Positions 2 to 22,563 of a stretch of 22,563 nt of DNA are shown here, piece by piece. The stretch covers positions 1 through 22,563 of IMG/VR virus record IMGVR_UViG_3300035698_016412. One strand, 5' to 3'. Origin of the DNA: a virus. Below the pieces are notes generated by a model. That model was not told the origin of the DNA and searched no databases. It worked only from the letters and a program-made list of their open reading frames with translations. The position numbers and the translations under genes were made by a program. Numbering within the stretch: position 1 is the stretch's first letter; every line of letters begins with the position of its first letter.

Positions 2-484
2 GAGGATCCTCTCACTGGTTTTCAGGGTGATGTGACTTTTAATAAAGGAGATGGTTCCGGTGCAGTAGCTCAGACTGTAATGGGGCTTAGTTTTACACTT
101 AACAATAATCTTTTTGGTGATAAGTTTGAGTTGGGTGATCGTCAAAGAGCGGCTCTTGTTCCCCAGAGGAGAACAACTGAAGGAACTTTAAATATGGAGT
201 TTGATGATCTTGATATTTTTAGAATGTTTGTTAATGGAACCGCTGGAGATTTGACTGTTACCATTACGTCTGATGAATACGTTCCAGATGAAGATGGAAC
301 AGATACTACCACTAAAATGTCTATTCAGTTGAGATTTCCTAATCTAAAATTTAGTGGAACAACTCCGGTAATCGGAGGAGAAGAACTAATAGTTACTGAT
401 TTTCCATTTACGGCACTATATGATGATACGGAAGATATTCCCGATATGCGTATTGTCATGGTGAATGGACAAAGTTATATATAA
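2..484 (+). CDS. Major tail tube protein, 5' truncated by window edge
   Basis: This is the C-terminal 160 or so residues of a phage tail tube protein. The frame is open to the first base, so the true start lies upstream. The GTG at 32 lies within the open frame, and nothing marks it as the start. The visible part is beta-rich, with alternating hydrophobic and polar strands, the segment FGDKFELGDRQRAALVPQRR, then an EGTLNMEFDD strand. This is the pattern I know from siphovirus tail tube proteins, which stack as rings around the tape measure to form the hollow tail. The position just before two tail assembly chaperones and the tape measure gene is the expected one. The family call is by recall of sequence pattern plus synteny, not by a search. 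Confidence 0.8.
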   Translation, partial: EDPLTGFQGDVTFNKGDGSGAVAQTVMGLSFTLNNNLFGDKFELGDRQRAALVPQRRTTEGTLNMEFDDLDIFRMFVNGTAGDLTVTITSDEYVPDEDGTDTTTKMSIQLRFPNLKFSGTTPVIGGEELIVTDFPFTALYDDTEDIPDMRIVMVNGQSYI

Positions 485-790: not shown

Positions 791-1156
791 ATGAAAGGTG
801 TAAGATTTGATCAAACTCATAATTATGTATGTAAGTGTGATCTTGATCTTCCTAAAAAGGAAGACAAGGCTGTTTTTCAAGTAAGATTTTTAACGGCTAA
901 AGAACAGGCAAAGGTAAGAGATTCAATGTATGCTGTAACTGGAATTGGAGCAGCGAGAAGGGAAACGTTTCGTACTGGTTCAGCAACTCAGAATGCTCTA
1001 GAACTAGGAGTAGTTGGGTGGACGAATTTTAAGTACGGAGATACAGGAGAAGAAATTCCGTTTTCTATTGAGAATATCTCTTGTATTCCACCAACGGAAC
1101 GAGATGAGCTCTCTAACTACATTCGTGGTATAGAGGAAGTTGAAGGTGAGATTTAG
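791..1156 (+). CDS. Tail assembly chaperone (lambda gpG-like), copy 1
   Basis: This 121-residue acidic protein lies between the tail tube and tape measure genes, where siphoviruses encode the chaperones that bind the tape measure and recruit tube subunits. The start at ATG 791 is chosen because of the strong ribosome site at 772-780. The central part reads LTAKEQAKVRD, then LGVVGWTNF, EEIPFSIENIS and RDELSNYIRG. The GW-NF / IPF / helix pattern is typical of G-type tail chaperones. The next gene repeats the same pattern, so the two are paralogues. Its stop overlaps a TTG-started extension of the next frame (1140), but a better start for the next gene lies at 1188. Role assignment rests on position, size and the pattern match. 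Confidence 0.75.
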   Translation: MKGVRFDQTHNYVCKCDLDLPKKEDKAVFQVRFLTAKEQAKVRDSMYAVTGIGAARRETFRTGSATQNALELGVVGWTNFKYGDTGEEIPFSIENISCIPPTERDELSNYIRGIEEVEGEI

Positions 1157-1187: not shown

Positions 1188-1985
1188 ATGGCAAGACTTG
1201 ATCCAAAAAATATATATCCTTATGTTTGCGAAGAAGAGAAGGGAGATAAAAACAGTACAACTTTCTTCCTAAAGGGTCTTACGGTTGCCGAATATCGCGA
1301 ATGCGAGGAACTGCTTTCAGAAGGAAGTATGTTTGGTGAATATGGATTAAGAGTTGTTAAATATGGTTTGGTCGGATGGGATAATTTTGTCTATGAAGAT
1401 GGCGAAGTTATCCCATTTGATTTTAATAATATTGGTTCAATTCCATATATATTCCAAATAGAAATATCTAATGAAATTGTTGAGTTGTCTGAATTGAATA
1501 ATGAATTATTTGAAGAGTTGGAGTTGGTGGCAAAATGGGGAGATTGGATTAGTAGGAGTAGTCATCCAGAACATTGGGAGTGTGAATATTGTTCTGAAAA
1601 AAAACTTTCTAGTATTCGTAACTGTGATGGAACTCAAACTTATGAATGTCAGAAATGTAAGGGAAGAAGTAATGATGAAATCTGTAAGAAATGTGGTATT
1701 GCGACAAAAGTTGCATTTAGATTCAGGTTTAGTAACAAGAAGGAAGATTATGTGAAGAGATGTCCCGTGGCTATATTGACATCAAGAGCTATTAAGATTA
1801 CTAATCTTGTTAATTTTATGGAGAATTCTAAAACTCTTCCTTTTCCAGGAGGAGCCTTAGAACAAACTAATTTTTTTTATATGTTAAGAAGTATGGTTTT
1901 ATCTGAACAAAATGAATTGCTTAGAGAAGAAATGGATCGCAGTAAAAAAGAGTTAGAAAGAAAAAGTAAAGGGACGGGAAATTAA
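1188..1985 (+). CDS. Tail assembly chaperone copy 2 with zinc-ribbon-like and T-like C-terminal part
   Basis: ATG 1188 is chosen because AAGGAAG sits 8 bases upstream; the frame also opens from a TTG at 1140 without a clear ribosome site. The product is 265 residues. Residues 25-105 repeat the pattern of the preceding chaperone (LTVAEYRE, YGLVGWDNF, EVIPFDFNNIGSIP). Then comes a cysteine-rich region: CEYC at 132-135, C146, CQKC at 154-157 and CKKC at 166-169. This spacing suggests one or two structural zinc ribbons. The C-terminus has LPFPGGALEQ (217-226) and a charged helix, which recalls the T part of lambda GT or the large chaperone of other siphoviruses. It ends 3 bases before the tape measure ATG. 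The phage may thus encode short and long chaperones as separate genes. Metal binding is inferred from cysteine spacing only. Confidence 0.65.
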   Translation: MARLDPKNIYPYVCEEEKGDKNSTTFFLKGLTVAEYRECEELLSEGSMFGEYGLRVVKYGLVGWDNFVYEDGEVIPFDFNNIGSIPYIFQIEISNEIVELSELNNELFEELELVAKWGDWISRSSHPEHWECEYCSEKKLSSIRNCDGTQTYECQKCKGRSNDEICKKCGIATKVAFRFRFSNKKEDYVKRCPVAILTSRAIKITNLVNFMENSKTLPFPGGALEQTNFFYMLRSMVLSEQNELLREEMDRSKKELERKSKGTGN

Positions 1986-1988
1986 ATC

Positions 1989-4900
1989 ATGGCTGCTACT
2001 AGTCGCGAAATAAAATTTCAGATCAGGATGATTAATTTAGCTGATAAAGGTATGAAGCAATTTACTGCTGATCTTAGAGAAATGCAAAAAGGTGTTTCTA
2101 GTCTTAATAGGGTTCTAGGTAGTGATGCCGGATCTAAAAGAATAAAAACAACTACTAACAATATTAGAGAATTTATGAAGGCCATGAGTGTGTCTTCTAA
2201 AGCTAAATATTTTGAAGGGTTTACTAAGGTTGCTGATTCATTTCAAAAGATATCCCAAGCTGCCTGGACTGCTGAGGGATCGCTTAAAGCTTTTTCAAGT
2301 GTAATAACTGAGGCTGCTAACATTGGAAGTCAATTTAGAGCATCTGGAGAGGCAGTAAAGTCTTTCTCAACTACTTTTGATGAAATAGCGGTTGCTATGC
2401 AAAAATTCAGCGGTATTAGTAATAAGAAGATGACTGGTATTTCTAATATGTTTTCACAAATGAGAAAAGCTGGAGAAACTGGAGCCGGTGGTGGTTTAGT
2501 AAGAGCAATTGAAAGTATTGCAGCGATTAAAGGAGATGTGGTTATAGTTGCGAATGCTATAGAAAGAATGACAATTGCCCTTAACAGTGCAAAAGTCGTA
2601 GGTGGCGCTAGGGGAATTGTGGGAGGAGCATTAGCAGGAGGTGGCGGAATTGGAGGTGGAACAGGAGAGGGTGATTTAAGTACTCCAATGAGATATATGG
2701 ACTGGGGAATGGTTTCTGGAGGTGGAAAAGATATATTCGAATCCCTACAGAGAAATTTACCTGATTTTTTATCCGGAGGTGGTCCCACGTCTAAAGTGGG
2801 AGCCGATCAGGCTGCACAAGAATTTATAGGTAATCTTGAGAGGGGAAATCTTCATATAAATGAGAAAATTGAAAAAATGATGAAGACAAAATCGGTTCAC
2901 ATGAAAGAGATAATTAGTCAAGTTGATAAAGTTAACATAGCTAAAGGAAAGCCAGGAACTACAGGGATAGTAAGTGCTAGTGGTTTTGCAAAGCTTCTTT
3001 CAGGAAGAACTTGGGCAGAAAGCATTCCTGGAGAAAAAGCAACATTTGGAATGGCTAGAGGTACTGCCTTTCATGGTGTTGCTGAGCATCTTGTAAAAAT
3101 GATCGATGAACAACACACAGTTGGTTCTTTTATTGAAAAGCATGGTCATAGGACAAGAAAATGGGCTAATCACATTGTAACAGAAGCAAGGACAGCCGAG
3201 GCTCAATTTAAAATAATAGCACTAAAGGCGGCCGAAACTAAGGGACTTCCCATGACTAATGTCATGAGAGATCAAATAAACGCATCGGCTAGACAACTTA
3301 AAAAAGAGATATTGAGATTTGGTGGGAAGGGAGGGTTTTTTGCTCAGGTTGGTAGTAGGGTTATGAGAATGGTTAAAGGAGATACGAAGAAATTTTCAAA
3401 AGTTATGAGCGGCCTTAGTGTTGAATTGGAAAAAGAACTTGCACCATTAATGATTTTAAAACCTGGAGGAAAATTTGCTGATCTTCCACCACATTTAAAG
3501 ACTGAAGCAGTTTCTTATGTAAAAGATGCCATTAGGCAGTTAAGAAGATCGCTTGGTCCAACTACTCAAGCTTATAAGAATGTTATGGCAAACATCAGGA
3601 AGTTCGGTTTAACAATAATGGGAACAGCTGATGTTGTTATGAATTTAGGTGCGGATTTAGGCAAGGTAGTAGTTGACTATAAGACAGGTGTATCTTCTGC
3701 TGCTAAGGGAAGGTCTACCAGACAACAAACAGCCGCTTATCAGCTACAAGCAGCTAAGGAATATGGACAACCAATAGAAGGACCGGGAGGAATTCAAGCT
3801 TGGGCATATCGTCCTCAAACAGGAATGAAGACTACAGGATTTGGAGTTTCTGAAGAGGAATTAAGGTTAAATGAAAGGTCAGAGAAAATTCAAAGACAAA
3901 AAAATCAAAGCTTAAAAGAAGAAAAACTGATTTCAGAAGATCTTAAGAGAGTAACTGCTGAGAAAGTCGCTGCCGAGGAATCTGCTGCTGGACATAGAAC
4001 AGCTAGTGTTGAATTGTCTCGACAGTTAGAACTATCTGCTCAGAGAGAGCTTGCTCTTAAACAAGGTATATTAAGAACATCTGAAAAACAAAAGACAGTA
4101 AATTCTGAAATAAGAGCAGCAGGTGGAGGAACAGTAGGGGGTGGAGGAATTGCTCCCGTAGTGGGAATTCCTGGTTTTAAGTTAAAAGATAGGATGGCTG
4201 TAGAGAATCGCGGAAATCTCATGGCTATGAGTCGATTTAATGAAGTTTTAACTGCTTCATATCTCAAGCAAGGAATGTTAGGAGAGAGAATTGATCTTAC
4301 TAAAGTAAAGATGTCTGAATATAATCGTTTAGTGGAACTTCTTTCTGGTTCTTTAGGTAAGTATGTTATGCTTGAAGATAAACAAGATAAAGAACTCATA
4401 GATACTGTTGGACATCTTGAACGGTTAGATATTGCATTGAGGAAAAATCGGGAAGAATATGACAGATCTATCGCTCAGAGACAAAGATATGCAACTATAG
4501 AAAAGACAGTAAGGGCAAGATTGGAAGGTGCGGAAATACAGGGTGCGAAATCTGGTGCGGCAAGAACAGCTATATTAAAAGGACCAAAAGGAGAACAGTT
4601 TTTTGCAGGAATAAGAACAGAAGCTGAAACCTTTAAGGGATTGGGACTTTCTAGGTTAGCTAAAGATGCAGATAATGCAAAATCTGAATTTTTGGATTTA
4701 GAAAAAGGAACACAAAAGTTTAACGAAAGTTTAGTAACAGCTATGAACACAGAAGAAAATTTCAATACTGAAATTGGTAGAACCGTTACACACCTAAAAG
4801 AAACTGATCCTATTTTTAGAAAACAAGCTAAAGGAGTAAGAGATGTAGGTAAGGCTACGGAAGTATTAACAGGAGCAGTAAGGAGAGGTAACAGAGCTTA

Positions 4901-7900
4901 TGTTTCTAATATAGGAACATTTAGTAGAACAATTGATACGATGAGGGAACTTGATAGAAGATACGATTCTTTAAATATAAGAACTAAGGGATATGATTTA
5001 TCTGCTGGAAAATTGGCTATAGCCATTCAAATACTTAAGAAAAACCAGACTGAATTAGCTGTTACCCAAGATAGAGTTTCTAAAGCTATGGGGCTGCAAG
5101 AAGATCATTTACATAGATTGTTGTCGGCGGAAAATAGAAATTCTACTGAAATTAATAAAACTAGAGGGAAATTAATTGCTCTTGAAAAAACTTATGATAA
5201 GTTGTCAGCTAAACAAAGAGTATATACAACCAAACTTAATGAGTTTGATGTTGTTCAGAAGAGAAGTTTGGGGAAAACATCTGAGCATTTTAGAGCAATG
5301 ATGAGGTCGCAGATAGCTGGTTTTGCAGACATGATGAAATCGCAAACAGCATGGATAGCTGGATATGCTGTAATGTTTGGAACTGTAAGGGGTATCAAAT
5401 CAGCTTTAGCTTCGGTAATTACTGTTCAGCATGAATTTGCTAGGGCAATGAGAACTGCTAGGCAAGAATCAATGACTACCCTCGAGATTCAAAAGAGATA
5501 TGAATCAGAGGGTGTGGCTGCAATGATAAAATTCGGTAGGGCTGTTGGAGATGTAGGAGAAGTCCTTTACCAATTAGGTAGTGCTGGTTTGAAGTCAAAA
5601 GAATCCTTAGCTGCCTTGAATTCAACTATGCAGATGATAGTCGGTACCGAAGAGGAAATGACCGAAGGAACAAAAATGGTTGCTGCGGTTTATAATAATT
5701 TTGGAGAACAGATAAAGAGTGCAACTGGTCTTAGTGGAAAATTTAAATATATAAATGATATAGTTGTGGCTACATTTAGAGATCATCAGGTTGAATTGAA
5801 TGAACTTAGAGAAGGTTATAAGCATTTAATGGCTATGGGAAAAGTTTCTAATTTAAGTTTTCTTGAAATGTCTGGAATTCTCGCAACATTAAATGACCAT
5901 TTAATTAAATCAGGAATAGCTGGTAGGTCAGTGCAGACAGTCTTAAGCAGAATATCAAGGCAACCGGCTGATTTTGCTAAAGCTTTTGGTGTGGTTATAG
6001 ATCCAGATGAACCTATTAACTTTCTCAAATTAATAGGACAAATAGGTAACAAATATAAAGATACAGGAATGACTGTCGAAGATGTTGGTCGTATTTTTGA
6101 AAAATTGGGATTAAGAGGAGCTAAATCTTTTACAATTCTAATTCAAAATGTTGATAAATTAAGAGAAAATATTGAACTACTTAAATATACTTCTGAAGAT
6201 GCTGCGGAGATTATGGCAGAGGTTATGTTGAGGAAACCAGATGTTGCTTTCGCAAGAATGAGAGAGACGCTGGCTGCATTAATTCGTCAAGGTCTTTATC
6301 CTATAGTCGAAGCAGCTAATCTTGTTGCCGTGTCTGTATCTATGATAGGAATGAGCGTTGTCGGGGCAGATGAAGCAGCAAAATCTTTCTTAGGGACGTT
6401 AGTTACGTTAGCAGGAATGGCTATTACATTGACGGCGATAACTGCCGGAGTAAGAGCATTACAGGCCAGAGCACAAATTGGTGCGGCTGATTGGAAAACT
6501 GTAGGGGATTATTGGAGTAGAATTACAGCGCATTTTGCTGGTGCTGCGATTGCTGTTAGAAATCTTGCTATGTCTTTCACGACGTTAAAGATTTCTTCCA
6601 TAAGTGCTGCCTGGGTTGCGTTTGGGAATACTGTCTTTTTTTCAGTGGCTGCACTTAATCTTCTCATAGCTGCCGTAGGAATACTTCTTTTTTATAAGCT
6701 TTGGAAATGGCTTGATCAAGCTGCTGAAAGGGCTGTTGCTTTAACGGGAAAAATTCTTGAGGCTACGCAAGCATGGAAGAAAGAATCGGAATCTCTCATG
6801 GAGGAACGGGATGCACTAGAGTTACTAGGAGAAGAAAGATTAAAAGACATAGAGTTAATAAACGAACAGATAGAGGCTAAAAGAGTTTTACTTATGATGT
6901 CTATGAAGGAGGAAGGTGGGCTCAATAAGGTAAAAAAATCTGTATCTGATTTAATTGAAAAAACCAGAAAAATTATTAAACAAGAACCAATAATGATGAT
7001 TGGTTCTGAATATATTGGAGATGAGTCTCTTAAGATCCAAGAGAAGGAAAGACTAACAGATTTAAGACAAATAGCTAGGTTATTAATACAGGAGGGTACT
7101 CACCTTAGAGACTTAAGAATTACTCATCAAGAAGTGTTAGATCTTATGAATGAAAGAAGAAAAGCGAATAAATCTATAAATGAAGAACTATATAACGATA
7201 CAAAGAAGCTTGTTAATTTTTATACCCAAGAAGAAAATAAATTAAGAAGAGTTCGAAAAGAAGCACTGGAGGGACTGGGAAAGACAACAGAAAGTCCCAT
7301 ACGGAAAGGTAAAAAAGAAATAAAAGAATATATCGGCGAATGGGACAAATATATTGCAAAAGAAAAAAGATCTTTTGAAATTGGTCCGTATGAAAAGAAT
7401 ATAAGAGACAGAGCTAGGTTGGAAAAGGAACTACTGACAGAATCAAAAACTTTTGGAGAAAAGTGGGGTGTTCAAAGAATAAAAGATACATATGCTGCTT
7501 TAAAGTCAGGAGAAATTGAGAGAGCAGATGCGATAAAACATTTAATTCCTCTTTTAGATAAATTATCTACTGCTGATGTTAAGCAATTAGAGTTAGATAA
7601 GAAACGAGATAAAGCTATAAAGTCTCAGATAAAATCATATAAGGATTTTGCTGAGAAAATATCTGCACAAGCTACGGCAACTACGAAAGGTATGATTTCT
7701 TATAGTCCCTTAAAATCATTATTAACTATTGATAAAGAGACAGAAAATAAAGTAAAGCAAGTATTTAGAGATATAAATGCCCAAATGAGAAAAATCACAC
7801 AGGCTCCAGAAGAAGAAATAGCTGGTATTTTAAAGGGATTGGGACTTGATTTTAAAACTGTCAAAGAAGCAAAAAGTTACTTAAAAGAACTTGGTCTTGA

Positions 7901-9379: not shown

Positions 9380-9736
9380 ATGGCTGATTTTCCAACATTA
9401 AGTGAAACCCCATCTGTTGATAGTTATGAAGAAACAGCAGCTTTTGATCCCGTTATAAGAAGTCCGTATGAAGCTGGATACATGCAGACAAGAGCTAAAT
9501 TCACTAGAGTTCCTGAAAAATGGAAAGTGAAGTATGAGGTTTTATCAACTGACGATAAAAATACGCTTAAAACTTTTGAACATTCAACAGTTGTTTTTGG
9601 TTCCCTTTCTTTTAATTGGACACATCCCATAACCAGCACAATTTATGAAGTTAGATTTGGAAAAGATCCAATTATTTATCGACCTATGGAGAATGATGAT
9701 TTTTGGGAATGTGAATTTATTTTAGAGGAGGTTTAG
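9380..9736 (+). CDS. Minor tail protein, lambda gpM-like
   Basis: This 118-residue protein starts 8 bases after the tape measure stop, with GAGG 5 bases before the ATG. It shows the pattern of the gpM-like tail tip family: RSPYEAGYMQTRAKFTRVPEKW, then YEVLSTDDKNTLKTFE, then FNWTHPITSTIYEVRF, ending in WECEFILEEV. Proteins of this kind form part of the ring joining the tail tube to the tip. Its position directly after the tape measure and before a gpL-like gene matches the lambda order. The assignment rests on pattern and synteny. The nearest alternative name would be a generic distal tail protein. Confidence 0.8.
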   Translation: MADFPTLSETPSVDSYEETAAFDPVIRSPYEAGYMQTRAKFTRVPEKWKVKYEVLSTDDKNTLKTFEHSTVVFGSLSFNWTHPITSTIYEVRFGKDPIIYRPMENDDFWECEFILEEV

Positions 9737-9737
9737 A

Positions 9738-10373
9738 TTGTTAACTCTAAGCTCAGAAGCAATTATAGAAAAAAATCGCCTTTCTTCTAGCGGTGCATGG
9801 ATTATTCTTCTAGACTTAACTTTAACCGACGAAGTAACTCATATCCGCTTGGCAAGAAATACGGAAGATATTGTTTGGAATGGAAATACTTGGATAAAAT
9901 TTCCATTTGAAGTAGATGATGCAAAAGAAGAAGGAGGCGGCGAGCATGGTATGTTAACCGTACGTGTTTCTAATGTTTTAAGAACTCTTATGGTGTATCT
10001 TGAAGATGAAAAAGGGATGGTTGGATGTAATGCTAGGTTATACATTGTTCATTCTGATCATCTTGATTTAACATCTGCTGAAGTTGACGAATCTTTTATA
10101 ATAACAAAGTCGGGAGCAAATAGCATGTGGGCAACTTTTGAATTATCTGCTTCAAATTTGTTTGGAATACAATTTCCTGATCATAGGTATATAAGAGATT
10201 GGTGTAGATTTAGATTTAATTATCCTGCAGGAACAGATGTCAGATGTGGATATTCTGGTGATGATTATCTGGAATGTGCGCATACTTTGTCTGCTTGTAG
10301 AGAAAGGGGAAATTCTGCAAATTTTGGTGGATATCCTGGCATTCCTGAAGGTGGTTTGTATGTTAGCAGTTAA
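9738..10373 (+). CDS. Minor tail protein, lambda gpL-like with four C-terminal cysteines
   Basis: The start is a TTG at 9738, one base after the preceding stop. AGAGGAGG just upstream supports it despite the non-ATG codon. The product is 211 residues. A beta-rich N-terminal part (LLDLTLTDEVTHIRLARN, then WNGNTWIKFPFEV) is followed by a C-terminal part with four cysteines at 156, 170, 180 and 187 and the closing motif RERGNSANFGGYPGIP. Lambda gpL is known to carry an oxygen-sensitive iron-sulfur cluster on four C-terminal cysteines, and the same layout is seen here. The protein is a tail tip structural subunit. The last 14 bases overlap the start of the NlpC/P60 gene. Confidence 0.85.
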   Translation: MLTLSSEAIIEKNRLSSSGAWIILLDLTLTDEVTHIRLARNTEDIVWNGNTWIKFPFEVDDAKEEGGGEHGMLTVRVSNVLRTLMVYLEDEKGMVGCNARLYIVHSDHLDLTSAEVDESFIITKSGANSMWATFELSASNLFGIQFPDHRYIRDWCRFRFNYPAGTDVRCGYSGDDYLECAHTLSACRERGNSANFGGYPGIPEGGLYVSS

Positions 10374-10770
10374 TATAAAAATAAGTGACCTAATGAGAAC
10401 TCCTTTTGTTAGCGAAGGTAGAGATTTTAAAGTTGGTCTAGATTGTTGGGGTCTTGTAATGGAAGTTTCTAAAAGAGCAGGAATTGAACTTCCAGATTTT
10501 ATAGTAAAAGCTTCTGATGAATGTGGAATTGAAAATAAATTTGCTTGTGAAATATCATCTGGCAAATGGAGAAAATTGGATAAAGCTGAAGTTGGGAGTA
10601 TTGTTGTGATTAGAAATTCATGTGGGCCTTTTCATAATCATTTTGGAGTTTATTTAGGTTATGGAAAATTTATACATGCACTTAAAAGGATGAAAGGTAT
10701 CGTGGTGGATCGAATCAGTAATCCAATATGGAAGACTAAAATTGATGGATTTTATGTGTTAAAAAAATGA
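10360..10770 (+). CDS. NlpC/P60 tail tip peptidase, lambda gpK-like
   Basis: The start is placed at ATG 10360, with GAAGGTGG about 6 bases upstream and a 14-base overlap with the gpL-like gene. The frame is open further upstream, but that would overlap the gpL gene by over 130 bases. The product has 136 residues. It has the NlpC/P60 cysteine-peptidase layout: GLDCWGLV with catalytic C29, HNHFGVYLG with H94, and FIHAL with H106 as the likely third polar residue. The family cleaves peptidoglycan stem peptides, and in the tail tip it would help penetrate the wall. Lambda gpK also has a JAB metalloprotease part, which is absent here. Stop and next start overlap (ATGA at 10767), implying translational coupling. 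Confidence 0.85.
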   Translation: MLAVNIKISDLMRTPFVSEGRDFKVGLDCWGLVMEVSKRAGIELPDFIVKASDECGIENKFACEISSGKWRKLDKAEVGSIVVIRNSCGPFHNHFGVYLGYGKFIHALKRMKGIVVDRISNPIWKTKIDGFYVLKK

Positions 10771-13700
10771 AAATAATTGGAAATGTAATAAAAACTGAAT
10801 TGCAAGGAAATTTTCCATTGGCTCTTTATACTGGAAGAATTCGCATAACTATACTTTATAATCCACTGAATCCAAGAAAGCGTAAGGAAATAATTGTTCC
10901 TTATGTGGCATCAAAGTCTGTTTCTGAATATATTTCTGAGATAAAATCATTAGCAAGTTGTGATGTTGAATTAATGTATTCAGTTAATGGAAGAGTTTTA
11001 GATAACTGTGACGTGGTACGTGTTTGTCCATCTTCCGGAAGCCAAATAGTAATAATGGCGAAACCTCAAGGTGGAGATAATAATATATTAAGATTGATAG
11101 CTATGGTTATCATTACAGTGATTGCTGCTGCTTTACAACAACACTATGCATATATTGGGATGTGGGCTAGTTATGGCATTATGGCAGGAGTCATGATTGC
11201 AGGAACTCTTCTTGTTAACGCTTTGTTTCCATATCAAACCCCCGCATTGCCAACAATGGGTAATGCAGGAGCCATTTCGCAAGGTGCTCAGGAAGAGTTA
11301 GATCAGACATCCACTTATGGATGGGGAGCCATGACTAACCTCCAAAATCAAGGTTTTCCAATTCCAAGATTGTATGGTGAAAGAAGAGTTCCGGGAAACA
11401 TTATTAATAGATTTATAGATATCCTTGGCGATAAACAGTTTTATAATGTTTTGTTATCTTTAGGAGAAGGAGTTTTTACAAGTATTAAGGACATAGAAAT
11501 AAATAGACAGCCTCTTGAAAATTATACTGAAGTATGGCAAAATGTGAGATTGGGTGATACTTCTCAAACTGTAATAAGTTATCATAATGATACTTTCAAT
11601 AGACAAAGCTATAACGTAGAACTAAGTACTTCGACATATGTCACTAAGGAAACTCCTGGTAATGCAGCGGAAGGATTAAGAGTTGAAATTACTTTTCCAA
11701 ATGGGTTGTATCATAGTTCATTTACTGGTTCTCTAACTTCAACTCTTCTTGAGTTTGCTTTGCAGTATAAGAAAGATGGGGAAGATGCTTGGAACAGTTA
11801 TACAAGTGGAGCCGCCGGAGGTGTAAAAGAATATACAGATCATCAATATACGCAAACAGGATTTAAATTTTTAGATGCTTGTGATAGTGTTAGTTTCTAT
11901 GCTGGTTGGGATGGCTATACCGAGACTTGGATTCCACCATCTATAGGGGCGATGGGATATGTATATCCAGGATACTATATTTATGGTGGAGATCTTCAAA
12001 ATGTATGGTATAGAACAGGTAGTTTCGAGACAGAGGATGATAGTGGTTGGAATCTTTGGGGATCTTCTTATGGACAAAGAACTATAACGCTTGTTAATCT
12101 CAATGGGCAACCGACCGAGGTTAAGTTTAAAAATGATCCTATTAACGCTGATCGTTGGGCTTCTGGTATCGTTAGAAGGATAGATTTGGGAGGAGGAGTG
12201 GGAGGCGTAAATGTAACGGCTGCTTCTAATAGTTCTATCAGGAGAGCTTATGATATAAGAAACTTATCACAAGGGAAATACAGTGTCAGACTTAAAATTC
12301 TAGATAGATCAGGTACAAGTGCAAGATACGTAAACAAATGTTTCCTTACAGGTATATCTGAAATAATTTTAGATGATTTTACATACCCGGGAACGGCTTT
12401 GTTGGGGGTTAGGGTTCTTGCTACTTCTCAATTGTCTGGTGGTCCACCTACTGTTACTTGTGTAGCAAATAGAGCTTATGTTCCGGTTCATAATGGAATA
12501 ACATGGGTTGCGAAAAGCGGAAAGAATCCAGCTTGGGCTAGTTATGATATATTATGTCGTCCTGTATATGATATGGAATCAGATGGAAGTGACATAACTG
12601 TTCATCACTTAGAAGGAGTTGATTATAGCCGTATTAATTATGATGATTTTGAAGAATGGGCTGATTTTTGTGACGAAAACTATTTTGAAGCAAACGTAAT
12701 TTTTGATTCTCAAGTTAGTATATGGGGAGCATTAACACATATTGCTCAAGTTGGTCGTGGAATGGTTGTGCAGAGAGGTACAAAGTTTTCTTGTGTCATT
12801 GACCAACTTGAATCAACTCCTGCTCAAGTTTTTAATGTTGCAAATGAATATAAAGATTCGTTTTCAGTAGAATATCTGCCCATGGAGGGTAGGGCTAATT
12901 GTGTAGAGGTTACTTATTTTGATAAGGATAAAGATTTTCAACGAGAAACATTTTTTGTATATGGTAATAAATACAATACCGCAGATAGAGTTATAAAAAC
13001 TCAATTAACGCTTAATGCTTGTACAGATTATAATCTTGCATGGAGAGAAGCTACTTATCGTCTTAATCTTAATGAATTCTTAATTAGAAAAGTAACCATT
13101 GATGTAGACGTTGATGCTCTGGCGAGTCAGTATGGGGATTTAATAGGTATTCAAAGCGACATACCGCAATGGGGATATGGAGGAAGAGTTGTTTCTTCTA
13201 CCAGCAGTTCAGTTACTTTAGATAGAACTGTTGGCATAAATGTTACTGATACTTATAAAGTTATGGTTCGTATTTCAGCAGATGATTCAACAGAAGAAAT
13301 GACAGTTACGAATTCTGGAGAAACAACTGCCACTATTAATATTTCTGGAACATGGACAACTAATCCTTCAAAATATGATCTTTGGTTTTTTGGGGTTAGT
13401 GATGCTTTATACAAAGAATACAAGATAGTTTCTATTACTAGATCAAGTGATCTGAAGCGTAAGGTAGTTGGAGTTGAATATAACGCTTCTATATATTTAG
13501 AAGGAGTGCCGACTTACTTAACAGAGTCTTCTTTGGTTGCATATCCTGTTGCTCATAATTCAAATGCATATGAAAGGTTAAGGTTTAATCAGGGTGGTTC
13601 TTGGGTTTCGGAGGTGCATTTAAATTGGGATAAAACTGATTCATCTTCTGAAGGTTCATGGAAGATATTTAGAATGGATATGTCTGTAGAATATTCTTCT

Positions 13701-14948
13701 TGGGAATATATAGGTCATTCAGAGGATACTTTTGTTATATTACAAGCTGATTGGCAGAAACAACATCAGTATAAAATAGCTATAGTTGGAATTTCCGAAT
13801 TAACTAAAGGTAGTGATTCCATAGAGAACGTCCTTCAGACAAGCATAGCTATTCTTTGGAAACAAGCTTCTCCGGATAATGTTGAAAACTTAACAGTTTA
13901 TCAAGAGGGATCAAGAGTATTTTTTAACTGGGATCATATTAGCGATGTAGATAGAGATGGTTATGAAATTCGATTAGGGGCTACTTGGGATGTGGGAGAA
14001 GTTTTAGTAAGCTTGGTTCAACAGAACAGTTTTGATTATCGACCTTCTGGAGATGGAACAAAAAAGTATTGGATAAAAGCTGTTGATACAAGTGGGAATA
14101 AATCAGAAATAGCCACTACTATAACTATCGTCGTTAGTAGAATATTAGATAGCTTAAATATTATTATAAATCGTGATGAAATTACTTTATCTCCAACTCC
14201 TGTTCCAGGAATTAAGGATAATATGTTGTTCGTGGCTGATTCTCCTGCATATTTGGGAGTTCCTCATGCATTTTTAGATGATGATGCCGTGATTACTGGA
14301 TGGGATGATACCACTGCCGATCCCAATATTTCAGGATATGATGGAAGTGTGGACTTAGATGGTTCTTACATTACTGAAATAATTGATTTATCTTCTAGTG
14401 CAAATGCTACTTTAAGGTTAGATATCGAAATTGATTCAGAGAATCTAGGAACTACTGATTTAACTTATCCAGATCGGCTGGATACTACTTATCCAAATGA
14501 TAGGGATGATTATATAACTTCTGAATCAATTTCAACACTTAGTTACAGATTCTCTACGGGGGCGGATCCTACCGGAGAAGATTGGAATGTGTATCTTGGT
14601 CCAGTAGATCTTACTGCTATGACTTTTCAAGTGAAATTTGATTTCTTATTAGATAATAATAAAACCACTTTTAAATTTACACAGTTAGGAATAGTTATTG
14701 ATGGAGTAGAAAAGGATCAGATTTTTAAAAACAAAAACGTTGCTCAGGGAGGAACAACGTTTAATTTACTTTCTGATTTTAGTTTAGTTATACTTGTTGA
14801 ATATGGTGTTTCTCTAACTGTTGTGGGGTCTAGTGCTTACTATCCTGTAATGAATAATTATTCCCTAACTAGCTTCGAAATAACGCTTTATGACAGTGAT
14901 GGAAATAGTCAGGCAGGAGTTGTTGATTTAAGAATAAGAGGTTTTTAA
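10767..14948 (+). CDS. Tail tip host-recognition protein, fused gpI-gpJ-like
   Basis: This 1393-residue protein is the central tail tip protein. Residues 1-155 resemble lambda gpI: a ubiquitin-like beta part, then two hydrophobic segments near 105-132 and 133-153. Residues from about 175 begin the gpJ pattern (YGWGAMTNLQNQGFPIPRLYGERRVPG). Around 608-828 lies the prophage-tail domain of the gpJ family, with DFEEWADFCDENYFEANVIF and WGALTHIAQVGRGM. Two fibronectin type III-like domains follow, roughly 920-1030 and 1036-1125 (the second with VFFNWDHISDVDRDGYEIR and YWIKAVDTSGNKS). The last 250 residues are beta-rich and unrecognised, and probably include the receptor-binding part. The start overlaps the previous stop by four bases. 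In lambda gpI and gpJ are separate; here they are one chain. Confidence 0.88.
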   Translation: MKIIGNVIKTELQGNFPLALYTGRIRITILYNPLNPRKRKEIIVPYVASKSVSEYISEIKSLASCDVELMYSVNGRVLDNCDVVRVCPSSGSQIVIMAKPQGGDNNILRLIAMVIITVIAAALQQHYAYIGMWASYGIMAGVMIAGTLLVNALFPYQTPALPTMGNAGAISQGAQEELDQTSTYGWGAMTNLQNQGFPIPRLYGERRVPGNIINRFIDILGDKQFYNVLLSLGEGVFTSIKDIEINRQPLENYTEVWQNVRLGDTSQTVISYHNDTFNRQSYNVELSTSTYVTKETPGNAAEGLRVEITFPNGLYHSSFTGSLTSTLLEFALQYKKDGEDAWNSYTSGAAGGVKEYTDHQYTQTGFKFLDACDSVSFYAGWDGYTETWIPPSIGAMGYVYPGYYIYGGDLQNVWYRTGSFETEDDSGWNLWGSSYGQRTITLVNLNGQPTEVKFKNDPINADRWASGIVRRIDLGGGVGGVNVTAASNSSIRRAYDIRNLSQGKYSVRLKILDRSGTSARYVNKCFLTGISEIILDDFTYPGTALLGVRVLATSQLSGGPPTVTCVANRAYVPVHNGITWVAKSGKNPAWASYDILCRPVYDMESDGSDITVHHLEGVDYSRINYDDFEEWADFCDENYFEANVIFDSQVSIWGALTHIAQVGRGMVVQRGTKFSCVIDQLESTPAQVFNVANEYKDSFSVEYLPMEGRANCVEVTYFDKDKDFQRETFFVYGNKYNTADRVIKTQLTLNACTDYNLAWREATYRLNLNEFLIRKVTIDVDVDALASQYGDLIGIQSDIPQWGYGGRVVSSTSSSVTLDRTVGINVTDTYKVMVRISADDSTEEMTVTNSGETTATINISGTWTTNPSKYDLWFFGVSDALYKEYKIVSITRSSDLKRKVVGVEYNASIYLEGVPTYLTESSLVAYPVAHNSNAYERLRFNQGGSWVSEVHLNWDKTDSSSEGSWKIFRMDMSVEYSSWEYIGHSEDTFVILQADWQKQHQYKIAIVGISELTKGSDSIENVLQTSIAILWKQASPDNVENLTVYQEGSRVFFNWDHISDVDRDGYEIRLGATWDVGEVLVSLVQQNSFDYRPSGDGTKKYWIKAVDTSGNKSEIATTITIVVSRILDSLNIIINRDEITLSPTPVPGIKDNMLFVADSPAYLGVPHAFLDDDAVITGWDDTTADPNISGYDGSVDLDGSYITEIIDLSSSANATLRLDIEIDSENLGTTDLTYPDRLDTTYPNDRDDYITSESISTLSYRFSTGADPTGEDWNVYLGPVDLTAMTFQVKFDFLLDNNKTTFKFTQLGIVIDGVEKDQIFKNKNVAQGGTTFNLLSDFSLVILVEYGVSLTVVGSSAYYPVMNNYSLTSFEITLYDSDGNSQAGVVDLRIRGF

Positions 14949-14963
14949 TTAAGGAGATATCTT

Positions 14964-16352
14964 ATGAGCCAGACTTATAATGCAGATAAGCCAGAATCAG
15001 CAGTAACCACTTTTGGTGAGTTGTATCTAATCATACGGAATCATATAGATGCCGTCGTGAGCAGTTTTTCAGGGACTTCGTATCCTTCTGATCCTGTAGC
15101 AGGACAATTATGCTATCGTACTGATTTGGGGGATAATGGTATTCTTAAGAAGTATAATGGTTCTGCTTGGGAAGATGTTGTTTATGAATCTGAATATATT
15201 ACTGAACTAATAAATTCTCGCGGTTCTGCTGCTAGTTTAGATGCTCGCTTAGACGTGGCTATAAACGAAGACGGAACTTTAAAAAGCGATACTCCGGCCG
15301 GCAGTTGGTGGTCAGAAGAGGCAGATGCAGTTGTTAATGTTTCTGGTGTGACTTTTACAGTTGCTGGAGATAAGGAAGCTATTTATACGGCTGGGAGGCC
15401 TATATACCTTACTGGTGTCTCTGGAGCTCCACAATATACCAGAGTTGTTTCTGCTGTATATGGAGTAACTACTTTAGTTACTATTGCAGATTCGATATCG
15501 GATGCTAGTATCAGCGGTGTCTTTTATGGTCAACCTCGTTATAATGCGGGTGTATATGAGGACGCTACTACAAGTAAAAAAGGAATTTCTGAGATGGCAA
15601 ATAGTGCTGAAACTATTGGTATGTCGTTAACTAATAAAATTGTTAATCCAGAAATGTTGGGAGAGCTTTTGCAATATGAAAATTTGTGGGTTGGTGCTGG
15701 AGCAATGATTCCAACGGATACTAATGGGGCTGCGAGTGGTACTCAAGAATACGCCACTAACGATATAATGATGGACTATTTTTCCTTTGATGGTTCTGCT
15801 AAAAATGAATATGCACAATTCTATTTAACAATGCCGCCTACTTGGGACAGAGAAACTCTTAGAATTATAGTATATTGGGCTCCTGGAGATAGTACCTGTT
15901 CAGAAGGGGATGATGTTGAATGGGAAATTTCTGCTGGAGCAATATCTAATGATGATGCTATTGATTATGACTATACTGCTGGAATAGTAACTATTGCTGA
16001 TGATGTTACTGCTGGAAAAGATGCAGACTTGCACGTGACAGGAACTACAGGTTTACTTACTGTTCAAGGATCTCCTGCTCTTTTAGATTTAGTTCATTTT
16101 ACTATAGGAAGAGACTATGATCATGGTGTAAGTCCTATGGTTGAGGATGCTCGGTTGTTTGGAATTGTGATTGAGTATAAAAGAGGAATAGCGGTTGCTC
16201 CATGGAGCAGTAGTTCTTCAAGTTCTTCTAGCAGCTTTAGTAGTTCTTCTAGCAGCTTTAGCAGTTCTTCTAGCAGCTTTAGCAGTTCTTCTAGCAGCTT
16301 TAGTAGTTCTTCTAGCAATAGCGTTAGTAGTTCAAGTTCATCAAGTAGTTAA
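14964..16352 (+). CDS. Tail fibre protein with Ser/Phe-repeat tail
   Basis: The start ATG 14964 follows AAGGAGAT. The product has 462 residues. The N-terminal segment (YNADKPESAVTTFGELYLIIRN) is of a type I associate with tail fibres that dock on the gpJ-like tip, and it is the first gene after gpJ. The middle is beta-rich with many Gly/Thr/Val, ending in a jelly-roll-like region (YLTMPPTWDRETLRIIVYW). After APW the last 48 residues are almost pure Ser with Phe every seven residues. Such a tail could be a flexible spacer, a glycosylation platform or a trimerisation tag; nothing decides among these. The fibre role is inferred from position and composition. Confidence 0.65.
   Translation: MSQTYNADKPESAVTTFGELYLIIRNHIDAVVSSFSGTSYPSDPVAGQLCYRTDLGDNGILKKYNGSAWEDVVYESEYITELINSRGSAASLDARLDVAINEDGTLKSDTPAGSWWSEEADAVVNVSGVTFTVAGDKEAIYTAGRPIYLTGVSGAPQYTRVVSAVYGVTTLVTIADSISDASISGVFYGQPRYNAGVYEDATTSKKGISEMANSAETIGMSLTNKIVNPEMLGELLQYENLWVGAGAMIPTDTNGAASGTQEYATNDIMMDYFSFDGSAKNEYAQFYLTMPPTWDRETLRIIVYWAPGDSTCSEGDDVEWEISAGAISNDDAIDYDYTAGIVTIADDVTAGKDADLHVTGTTGLLTVQGSPALLDLVHFTIGRDYDHGVSPMVEDARLFGIVIEYKRGIAVAPWSSSSSSSSSSFSSSSSSFSSSSSSFSSSSSSFSSSSSNSVSSSSSSSS
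16206..16349 (+). repeat. In-frame Ser/Phe-coding repeat, 21-bp unit
   Basis: The unit codes F-S6. Four Phe codons occur, each preceded by AGC, and the units differ only at a few third positions. It ends with an S-N-S-V interruption and an S8 end. Both Ser codon families (AGY and TCN) are mixed inside the unit. The last 27 bases (16324-16350) are identical to 22086-22112 in the larger tract. Confidence 0.9.
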
Positions 16353-17715: not shown

Positions 17716-17871
17716 ATGTTTAGGTTAATAAAAATTTGGATTGAACATTTTTTTAATCCTTTACATGTGTATTGCAGATTAATGGATGTTGGTTTTTCAA
17801 GAAAAAATGCAGGACGTTTATCTTTATTATATGAAGGGATTGTTAAGATAATATGGAAAATATTACGTTAA
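17716..17871 (+). CDS. Small phage protein (51 aa) with NPLHVYCRL motif
   Basis: This short gene fills the gap before DUF5675. Its residues read MFRLIKIWIEHF, then FNPLHVYCRLMDVGFSRKN, and it ends in a hydrophobic and basic helix. I recall similar 50-residue proteins with an NPLHVYCRL core next to lysis-region genes of other phages. Their function is unknown to me. The frame is also open to a GTG at 17701 and a TTG at 17698, and no start has a strong ribosome site, so the start is uncertain. ATG 17716 is preferred because it gives the length I remember for the group. The 3' end overlaps the next gene by 19 bases, suggesting coupled translation. Confidence 0.6.
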   Translation: MFRLIKIWIEHFFNPLHVYCRLMDVGFSRKNAGRLSLLYEGIVKIIWKILR

Positions 17872-18269
17872 TGAGAATAGAATCAGATGATCAAGGAACT
17901 CTTGGTTTCTTATATACTCCTGGTTTTTCATGCTATATGTTAGAGCTTCCATGGAAAAACAACCAGGTAAATGTTTCTTGTATCCCTGTTGGAACTTATG
18001 TTGTTAAAATTAAGAAAAGCCCTAAGTATGGAGTTGTTTATTGGATAACAGATGTGCCTGGCAGGACATTTATATATCAACATGCAGGAAATTTGGCAGG
18101 GGATGTTTCCATGGGGTTTAAGACAGATACTGAAGGGTGTCAATTGTTTGGCAGGTACTATGGGGTATTACAAAATCAGAGAGCTATTTTAAATTCTCGT
18201 TTCACAATGAATAATTTTATGAAATTTACTAATGGCAAGGATTATTTATTAACAATAAAAAATGGATAA
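17853..18269 (+). CDS. DUF5675 family protein, YkuD-like H/C motif
   Basis: This 138-residue protein matches the pattern of DUF5675: CYMLELPWKNNQVNVSCIPVGTYVV, then SPKYGVVYWITDVPGRTFIYQHAGN, then GFKTDTEGCQLFG (segments given separately, each from the chain). H77 and C96 in QHAGN and EGCQLFG resemble the His and Cys layout of L,D-transpeptidases (YkuD: HGxxx and SxGCxR). That relation is my inference, not an established assignment. The family is common in phages near lysis genes. The start ATG 17853 lies inside the end of the small upstream gene, with GAAGGG some 14 bases upstream, so coupling is likely. No signal peptide is seen. Confidence 0.78.
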   Translation: MENITLMRIESDDQGTLGFLYTPGFSCYMLELPWKNNQVNVSCIPVGTYVVKIKKSPKYGVVYWITDVPGRTFIYQHAGNLAGDVSMGFKTDTEGCQLFGRYYGVLQNQRAILNSRFTMNNFMKFTNGKDYLLTIKNG

Positions 18270-21613: not shown

Positions 21614-22563
21614 ATGGCTGATGTTAACTACATAGTTCCAGGAAGTGGAATAGTCCAAGATCAAGGAAATGATTATCAATTAATCATTCCTGGTTTTGGA
21701 ACTTATGATGAACAAGAATCAAGTTCCAGTTCATCAAGTTCTAGCTTTAGCAGTTCATCGTCTTCCAGCTTTAGCAGTTCCAGTTCATCAAGTTCTAGCT
21801 TTAGCAGTTCATCGTCTTCCAGCTTTAGCAGTTCCAGTTCATCAAGTAGTTCCAGCTTTAGCAGTTCCAGTTCATCAAGTTCTAGCTTTAGCAGTTCCAG
21901 TTCATCAAGTAGTTCTAGCTTTAGCAGTTCCAGTTCATCAAGTAGTTCCAGCTTTAGCAGTTCATCGTCTTCCAGCTTTAGCAGTTCCAGTTCGTCTTCC
22001 AGCTTTAGCAGTTCCAGTTCGTCTTCCAGCTTTAGCAGTTCCAGTTCATCAAGTTCTAGCTTTAGCAGTTCCAGTAGTTCCAGCTTTAGTAGTTCAAGTT
22101 CATCAAGTAGTTCCAGCTTTAGTAGTTCAAGTTCATCAAGTAGTTCCAGCTTTAGCAGTTCCAGTTCATCGTCTTCCAGCTTTAGCAGTTCCAGTAGTTC
22201 CAGCTTTAGTAGTTCAAGTTCATCAAGTAGTTCCAGCTTTAGTAGTTCAAGTTCATCAAGTAGTTCCAGCTTTAGTAGTTCAAGTTCATCAAGTAGTTCC
22301 AGCTTTAGCAGTTCATCGTCTTCCAGCTTTAGCAGTTCCAGTTCATCAAGTTCTAGCTTTAGCAGTTCCAGTTCATCGTCTTCCAGCTTTAGCAGTTCAT
22401 CGTCTTCCAGCTTTAGCAGTTCCAGTTCGTCTTCCAGCTTTAGCAGTTCCAGTTCATCGTCTTCCAGCTTTAGCAGTTCCAGTTCATCAAGTTCTAGCTT
22501 TAGCAGTTCCAGTTCATCGTCTTCCAGCTTTAGCAGTTCATCGTCTTCCAGCTTTAGCAGTTC
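21614..22563 (+). CDS. Ser/Phe-repeat protein, 3' truncated by window edge
   Basis: The ATG at 21614 directly follows the preceding stop (TAAATG). The frame is open to the last base, so the end lies outside. The first 35 residues (MADVNYIVPGSGIVQDQGND and a second part with IIPGFGTYDEQE) are ordinary. The remaining 281 residues are only Ser and Phe, Phe occurring 29 times. The N-terminal segment may attach it to a fibre or beta-helix partner, and the repeat would form an extended or fibrous region. No homologue is known to me. Because the stop is missing, a C-terminal binding domain could follow beyond the window. Confidence 0.7.
   Translation, partial: MADVNYIVPGSGIVQDQGNDYQLIIPGFGTYDEQESSSSSSSSSFSSSSSSSFSSSSSSSSSFSSSSSSSFSSSSSSSSSSFSSSSSSSSSFSSSSSSSSSSFSSSSSSSSSSFSSSSSSSFSSSSSSSSFSSSSSSSSFSSSSSSSSSFSSSSSSSFSSSSSSSSSSFSSSSSSSSSSFSSSSSSSSSFSSSSSSSFSSSSSSSSSSFSSSSSSSSSSFSSSSSSSSSSFSSSSSSSFSSSSSSSSSFSSSSSSSSSFSSSSSSSFSSSSSSSSFSSSSSSSSSFSSSSSSSSSFSSSSSSSSSFSSSSSSSFSS
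21719..22563 (+). repeat. Ser/Phe-coding minisatellite, variable 24-33 bp units
   Basis: There are 29 units, each beginning with TTT after AGC. The units code F followed by 7 to 10 Ser, so their length varies in steps of 3 bases and the frame is kept. Common unit types are 24 bp (F-S7), 27 bp (F-S8), 30 bp (F-S9) and 33 bp (F-S10). A higher-order copy is visible: 22058-22155 is identical to 22178-22275 (98 bases, offset 120). The window ends inside the tract, so its full length is unknown. Confidence 0.93.

Follow-up and report, generated by a model that had tools for sequence, protein, structure and literature searches.

The tail tape measure protein (TMP) encoded in a 22,563-nt stretch of DNA, IMG/VR virus record IMGVR_UViG_3300035698_016412, almost certainly contains a genuine RecB-like PD-(D/E)XK nuclease domain close to its N-terminus, Table 1. 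We refer to the whole of this stretch as the window. TMPs set the length of the tail, make a way through the envelope and in some cases digest the cell wall. Enzyme domains in tail proteins are known, as is a TMP-related nuclease in an injection system; a phage TMP with a RecB-like nuclease in it appears to be new, since we found no description of one in the open-access literature that we searched (subscription papers were not covered).

Table 1. Features of the window, with the evidence for each. Residue numbers are those of the TMP.
Feature	Position (nt)	Strand	Evidence
Tail tube protein, 5' end missing	2..484	+	Phage_tube_2 4.6e-12; phrog_290 4.2e-20
Two small paralogous proteins, probable tail assembly chaperones	791..1156, 1188..1985	+	Location between tube and TMP
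Tail tape measure protein (TMP), 2460 aa	1989..9371	+	PhageMin_Tail E 1e-17; PHROG families; gene order
TMP N-terminal segment, residues 1-198	1989..2582	+	Conserved in the family, MAFFT alignment of homologous TMPs
Gly-rich linker 1, residues 199-238	2583..2702	+	Gly-density scan; precedes the domain in 9/9 complete relatives
RecB-like PD-(D/E)XK nuclease domain, residues 343-624	3015..3860	+	PDDEXK_1 5.2e-8; AlphaFold2; fold matches
H362, motif G-T-x-x-H	3072..3074	+	Invariant in 10 distinct TMPs
E481, first core strand	3429..3431	+	Invariant in 9 aligned TMPs; kept in L039
G545-x-x-D548 (GTAD), metal-binding Asp	3621..3632	+	D invariant in 10 TMPs; G in 9
D548 codon	3630..3632	+	Translation
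D563-Y-K565, D-x-K catalytic motif	3675..3683	+	Invariant in 10 TMPs
D563 and K565 codons	3675..3677, 3681..3683	+	Translation
QxxxY-like motif, Q580-Y584 (QTAAY)	3726..3740	+	Q invariant in 9 aligned TMPs, Y variable
Gly-rich linker 2, residues 701-733	4089..4187	+	Follows the domain in 9/9 complete relatives
PhageMin_Tail TMP core, residues 1179-1334	5523..5990	+	52-63% identity between relatives
Tail tip genes: M-position protein, L, K (NlpC/P60), J	9380..14948	+	Domain matches

The tape measure protein and its gene neighbourhood

Homology and gene order show that the long open reading frame is a TMP; its presence in the virion and its role in setting the tail length are inferred. The PhageMin_Tail match was obtained in a scan of the full-length protein, which also matches the PHROG tape-measure families 167, 1272 and 4704. 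The genes of the window run from the tail tube through two genes at the chaperone position to the TMP and on to a set resembling M-L-K-J of lambda. In the tail tip set we found matches to Phage_tail_L (2.8e-12), NLPC_P60 (1.2e-13), FNIII-A_GpJ (4.2e-17) and Phage-tail_3 (5e-9), and the M-position protein (9380-9736) matches phrog_384 (4.4e-14). The two small proteins upstream of the TMP are 43% identical over 53 aa (E 2e-10) and are likely to be a two-gene tail chaperone set, a role inferred from their position. The second of them contains CxxC pairs of a zinc-finger-like kind, and L008 and L010 have similar proteins ahead of the TMP.

Downstream of the tail genes there is a DUF5675 protein (17853-18269, 9.6e-26). 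The window also contains arrays of Ser-Phe repeats at 16221-16317 and 21614-22563, with units of 21-33 bases in up to 28 copies. Almost the whole of the last open reading frame, truncated by the contig edge, consists of them, as does the end of the one at 14964-16352.

Identification of the nuclease domain

Scanned alone, the domain matches PDDEXK_1 (Pfam PF12705) with E-values between 2.6e-8 and 5.2e-8 and 33.6-34.5 bits, against a curated cut-off of 22 bits, and residues 301-637 alone give 3e-8 and 34.3 bits. The same library does not list PDDEXK_1 when the full-length TMP is scanned. That the domain is seen only in the isolated scan could explain why annotation pipelines overlook it, and is a warning that enzymes embedded in very long phage proteins can escape whole-protein scans. 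Six of the nine family members match PDDEXK_1 at E <= 0.01, and one gives a marginal hit to the Cas4 model TIGR00372 (E 0.0025). The best PDB sequence match of a profile built from six members is MGME1, a mitochondrial RecB-like exonuclease, at a weak E-value of 0.035. In a profile comparison with the stand-alone exonucleases of phages D29 and P23-45, the G-x-x-D, D-x-K and Q motifs line up correctly, with probabilities of 55 and 38 and E-values of 1e-4 and 3e-4; a stretch of the TMP body, used as a negative control in the same comparison, gave 0.1.

The domain is basic in all nine members, with a net charge of +6 to +21 and a pI of 9.2-9.9, and none of the nine (the window protein and eight relatives) has a cysteine in it. 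The histidine is found at 12-15% of the length of the TMP.

A preliminary description of the window, made from the sequence alone, had proposed an intact RecB/Cas4-type nuclease at residues 325-610 with the RecB-family motif series H362, D548, D563, K565 and QTAAY (580-584). All of these residues were confirmed at those positions, and the claim of an intact domain rather than a chance resemblance is upheld by the Pfam score, the invariant columns and the predicted topology. We adjust the extent of the domain to approximately 343-624 and add a further conserved residue, E481, which the series lacked; in the QTAAY motif Q580 is invariant and the tyrosine is not. The RecB part of the assignment held. 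The strict Cas4 part failed, as there are no cysteines for an Fe-S cluster, and membership of Cas4 is ruled out by the absence of cysteine from the domain in nine members.

Conservation in related tape measure proteins

Relatives were gathered from IMG/VR using the conserved TMP core as query; a query of IMG/VR with the domain of a single protein returned nothing. The H, E, D and D-x-K residues are kept in all ten distinct TMPs from IMG/VR contigs that have the region (the window, L002, L003, L005, L008, L010, L015, L019, L024 and L039). Nine of the domains could be aligned, with 17-36% identity to that of the window, and only nine of the 282 columns are invariant: G358, H362, E481, G540, G545, D548, D563, K565 and Q580. 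If all columns are taken as equally likely, five residues named in the preliminary description would all land in the invariant set with a probability of about 9e-9. In L039, judged by eye, a serine replaces the glycine at the G545 position, with H, E, D and D-x-K retained. The conservation of the active site is in this way shown directly by the alignment.

The remote TMPs L026-L030, with 25-28% identity in the core and a length of about 1830 aa where complete, do not have the domain, and a tree separates them from the domain-bearing TMPs. Two of them, L026 and L027, have one Gly-rich stretch, ahead of the core. L009 is truncated ahead of the domain region. Among 50,697 phage records there was no match to the domain, and no cultured relative with it was found. 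The phage matches listed for the full TMP are confined to the region near the C-terminus, and those for L024 to the core. No relatives were found in bacterial and archaeal genomes. Within the clade the domain is fixed, has a single fold and is vertically conserved.

Predicted fold

The AlphaFold2 model of the domain, built with nine homologues, has an alpha-beta-beta-beta-alpha-beta topology with a pLDDT of 89.7 and a pTM of 0.86, and agrees with an earlier model from six sequences. In the numbering of the model, a helix at 6-33 carries H362 and a strand at 135-148 carries E481, followed by two helices; D548 is on the strand 199-210, D563 on the strand 217-222 with K565 just beyond it, and Q580 on the helix 229-250, after which comes a strand at 260-266. 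The preliminary description would have been refuted by a model without this core, or by homologues in which H, D and D-x-K vary freely. The core is present in the model, and free variation was not seen, the residues being constant.

Against a viral structure library, four matches fell below 1e-3, and PD-(D/E)XK, Cas4 or RecB exonucleases account for most of the top matches that carry names. In the PDB, the best fold matches include ACE1 (Cas4 family), AdnA, AddAB, RecB and MGME1 amid unrelated low-probability entries. The Foldseek scores against the PDB are weak, with an E-value of 0.014 at best and TM-scores mostly of 0.15-0.42. Even so, the majority of the credible nearest structures are RecB/AddAB/Cas4/MGME1 nucleases. 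The fold evidence, which is predicted by a model, favours the RecB-like family and is insufficient by itself.

Comparison with known systems

The domain shares with the PDDEXK_1/RecB nucleases (AddB, RecB, MGME1 and the RecB/Cas4-like exonucleases of phages) both the fold and the order G-T-x-x-H, E, G-x-x-D, D-x-K, Q. It differs from them in being embedded in a TMP, in the roughly 200 largely helical residues that separate the H motif from D-x-K, and in having no helicase partner. The fold also resembles that of the iron-sulfur nucleases of the Cas4/AddB type, but without cysteines the TMP domain cannot have a 4Fe-4S cluster.

The closest precedent is Tme of Streptomyces davawensis (PMC11126660), a TMP-related protein that bears a nuclease in a tail-like particle. 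However, its nuclease is C-terminal, of the EndA type (DRGH/H-N-N) and not RecB-like, and it belongs to a bacterial contractile injection system and not to a phage. To the preliminary description, which knew of no TMP with a PD-(D/E)XK nuclease, Tme adds a TMP-related nuclease of another fold that is not itself in a phage TMP. Muralytic phage TMPs, such as that of mycobacteriophage TM4, are a precedent for catalysis by a TMP, although they act on the cell wall, whereas the enzyme described here belongs to a nucleic-acid family. In the BtI1 hub (PMC2147016) a staphylococcal nuclease domain is likewise fused to a tail protein; the protein is a baseplate hub rather than a TMP, the nuclease is of another family, and functional data are absent.

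A proposed role at DNA entry

The domain is likely to be catalytically active. This is inferred, and there are no activity data. In phage 80alpha the DNA end is capped by the tail completion protein, to which the TMP attaches through its N-termini, and the TMP C-termini are in the baseplate; in lambda the tail tip contains the C-terminus of the TMP (PMC11661146, PMC10721106). During injection the lambda TMP is located at the inner membrane (PMC13190303). If the layout is alike here, the nuclease would by analogy be located beside the DNA end, would exit just before the DNA and could act at entry. The preliminary description had the TMP ejected first; by the same analogy with 80alpha and lambda we refine this, since the N-terminal domain would leave after the rest of the TMP.

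We propose that a functional RecB-like PD-(D/E)XK DNA nuclease is tethered near the N-terminus of the TMP by two flexible Gly-rich linkers. The domain would be packed in the upper part of the tail tube, adjoining the leading end of the DNA, and would be expelled with the TMP immediately ahead of the DNA, so that the nuclease would work on DNA during or just after entry. Its likeliest task would be to trim or resect the incoming genome end prior to any phage gene expression. We lean towards action at DNA entry, a timing that is inferred without localisation data. That the genome end of the phage itself is the main substrate, also an inference, we consider slightly harder to believe than to doubt. 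As a whole, the favoured explanation, a virion-delivered RecB-like nuclease that acts at entry and likeliest on the phage's own DNA end, has in our view as good a chance of being wrong as of being right. In 80alpha and lambda the TMP is a trimer, which would give few copies per virion. A housekeeping task at the DNA end is preferred over a weapon because of this low copy number and the fixation in the clade, which is an inference.

Several points speak against the entry model. Data are lacking on activity, on presence in the virion and on location. Three copies of 31 kDa would be tight in a lumen of about 4 nm, and stacking, trimming or partial unfolding would be required; possibly, the Gly-rich linkers could allow three copies to be stacked in the narrow lumen, although this too is inferred. 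Moreover, a nuclease that is active next to the phage's own DNA would have to be held in check, and no such restraint has been identified.

If the entry model is true, it describes an injection step previously undescribed for a phage TMP. A DNA-processing enzyme would be built into the injection apparatus and act before host defences or phage genes, which may explain how some phages cope at entry with host nucleases, with circularisation or with rival DNA. A bolder reading is that a siphophage-like clade delivers a RecB-like nuclease via the TMP to process the leading end or competing DNA before expression; we would not bet on either side of this, and the activity it assumes is inferred.

Alternative explanations

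The main rival, which remains possible, is that the delivered nuclease attacks the host chromosome, plasmids, prophages or rival phages, favouring the incoming phage. It is supported by the TMP-related, nuclease-bearing effector that the injection system of Streptomyces davawensis delivers (PMC11126660). RecB-like enzymes can degrade linear DNA, which supports this rival as well. Against it, the domain is fixed, of a single fold and vertical, whereas domains used as weapons tend to be scattered and swapped (an inference); there would be few copies per virion; and the window shows no obvious gene for self-protection, although no systematic search was made. The roles suggested in the preliminary description, on host or rival DNA, the phage DNA end or plasmids, are all still inference.

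An assembly role, for instance the trimming of a protruding DNA end after packaging or at the joining of head and tail, is unlikely. The N-terminal part of the TMP adjoins the packaged DNA end in 80alpha (PMC11661146) and the phages carry their own terminase and portal, both of which are in its favour. However, the DNA end has already been made by the terminase, and in 80alpha the tail completion protein lies between the DNA and the TMP.

It is also improbable that the domain only grips the DNA end without cleavage in vivo. The domain is basic, and gp44 of 80alpha, a virion protein, binds and protects blunt ends (PMC7290940), but binding alone is not expected to keep H, E, D and D-x-K invariant across such divergence.

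That the motifs match by chance in a coiled-coil protein, a view for which the weak PDB sequence and fold scores could be cited, is all but excluded by conservation and the fold model, with the Pfam score and the coincidence of the invariant columns with the catalytic motifs.

Other genes on related contigs

The related contigs comprise two of 96 and 115 kb and one of 140 kb, and are possibly incomplete. No further PDDEXK_1, YqaJ, Cas4, RecT or ERF protein was found on the three. RecA, a metallophosphatase and a Rad50-like protein are encoded inside 4 kb on contig G001, and RecA and a Rad50-like protein on G003; the Rad50-like protein is an AAA_23 match in both. The idea that the TMP domain is the sole end-resecting enzyme was dropped in view of these genes, which suggest that some of these phages have another route of end resection. 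For the entry model this is a further objection, since RecA and the Mre11/Rad50-like proteins of G001 may cover recombination-type resection once they are expressed.

Contig G002 encodes a PolIII alpha subunit, gyrase A, thymidylate synthase, terminase and portal. The phage-encoded DNA gyrase subunit A is located at L044:11602-14004 (PF00521, 7.5e-166). The same contig contains a TnpB/IS605-type protein and an RRXRR-HNH protein (L045:17729-18901 and L046:281-1450).
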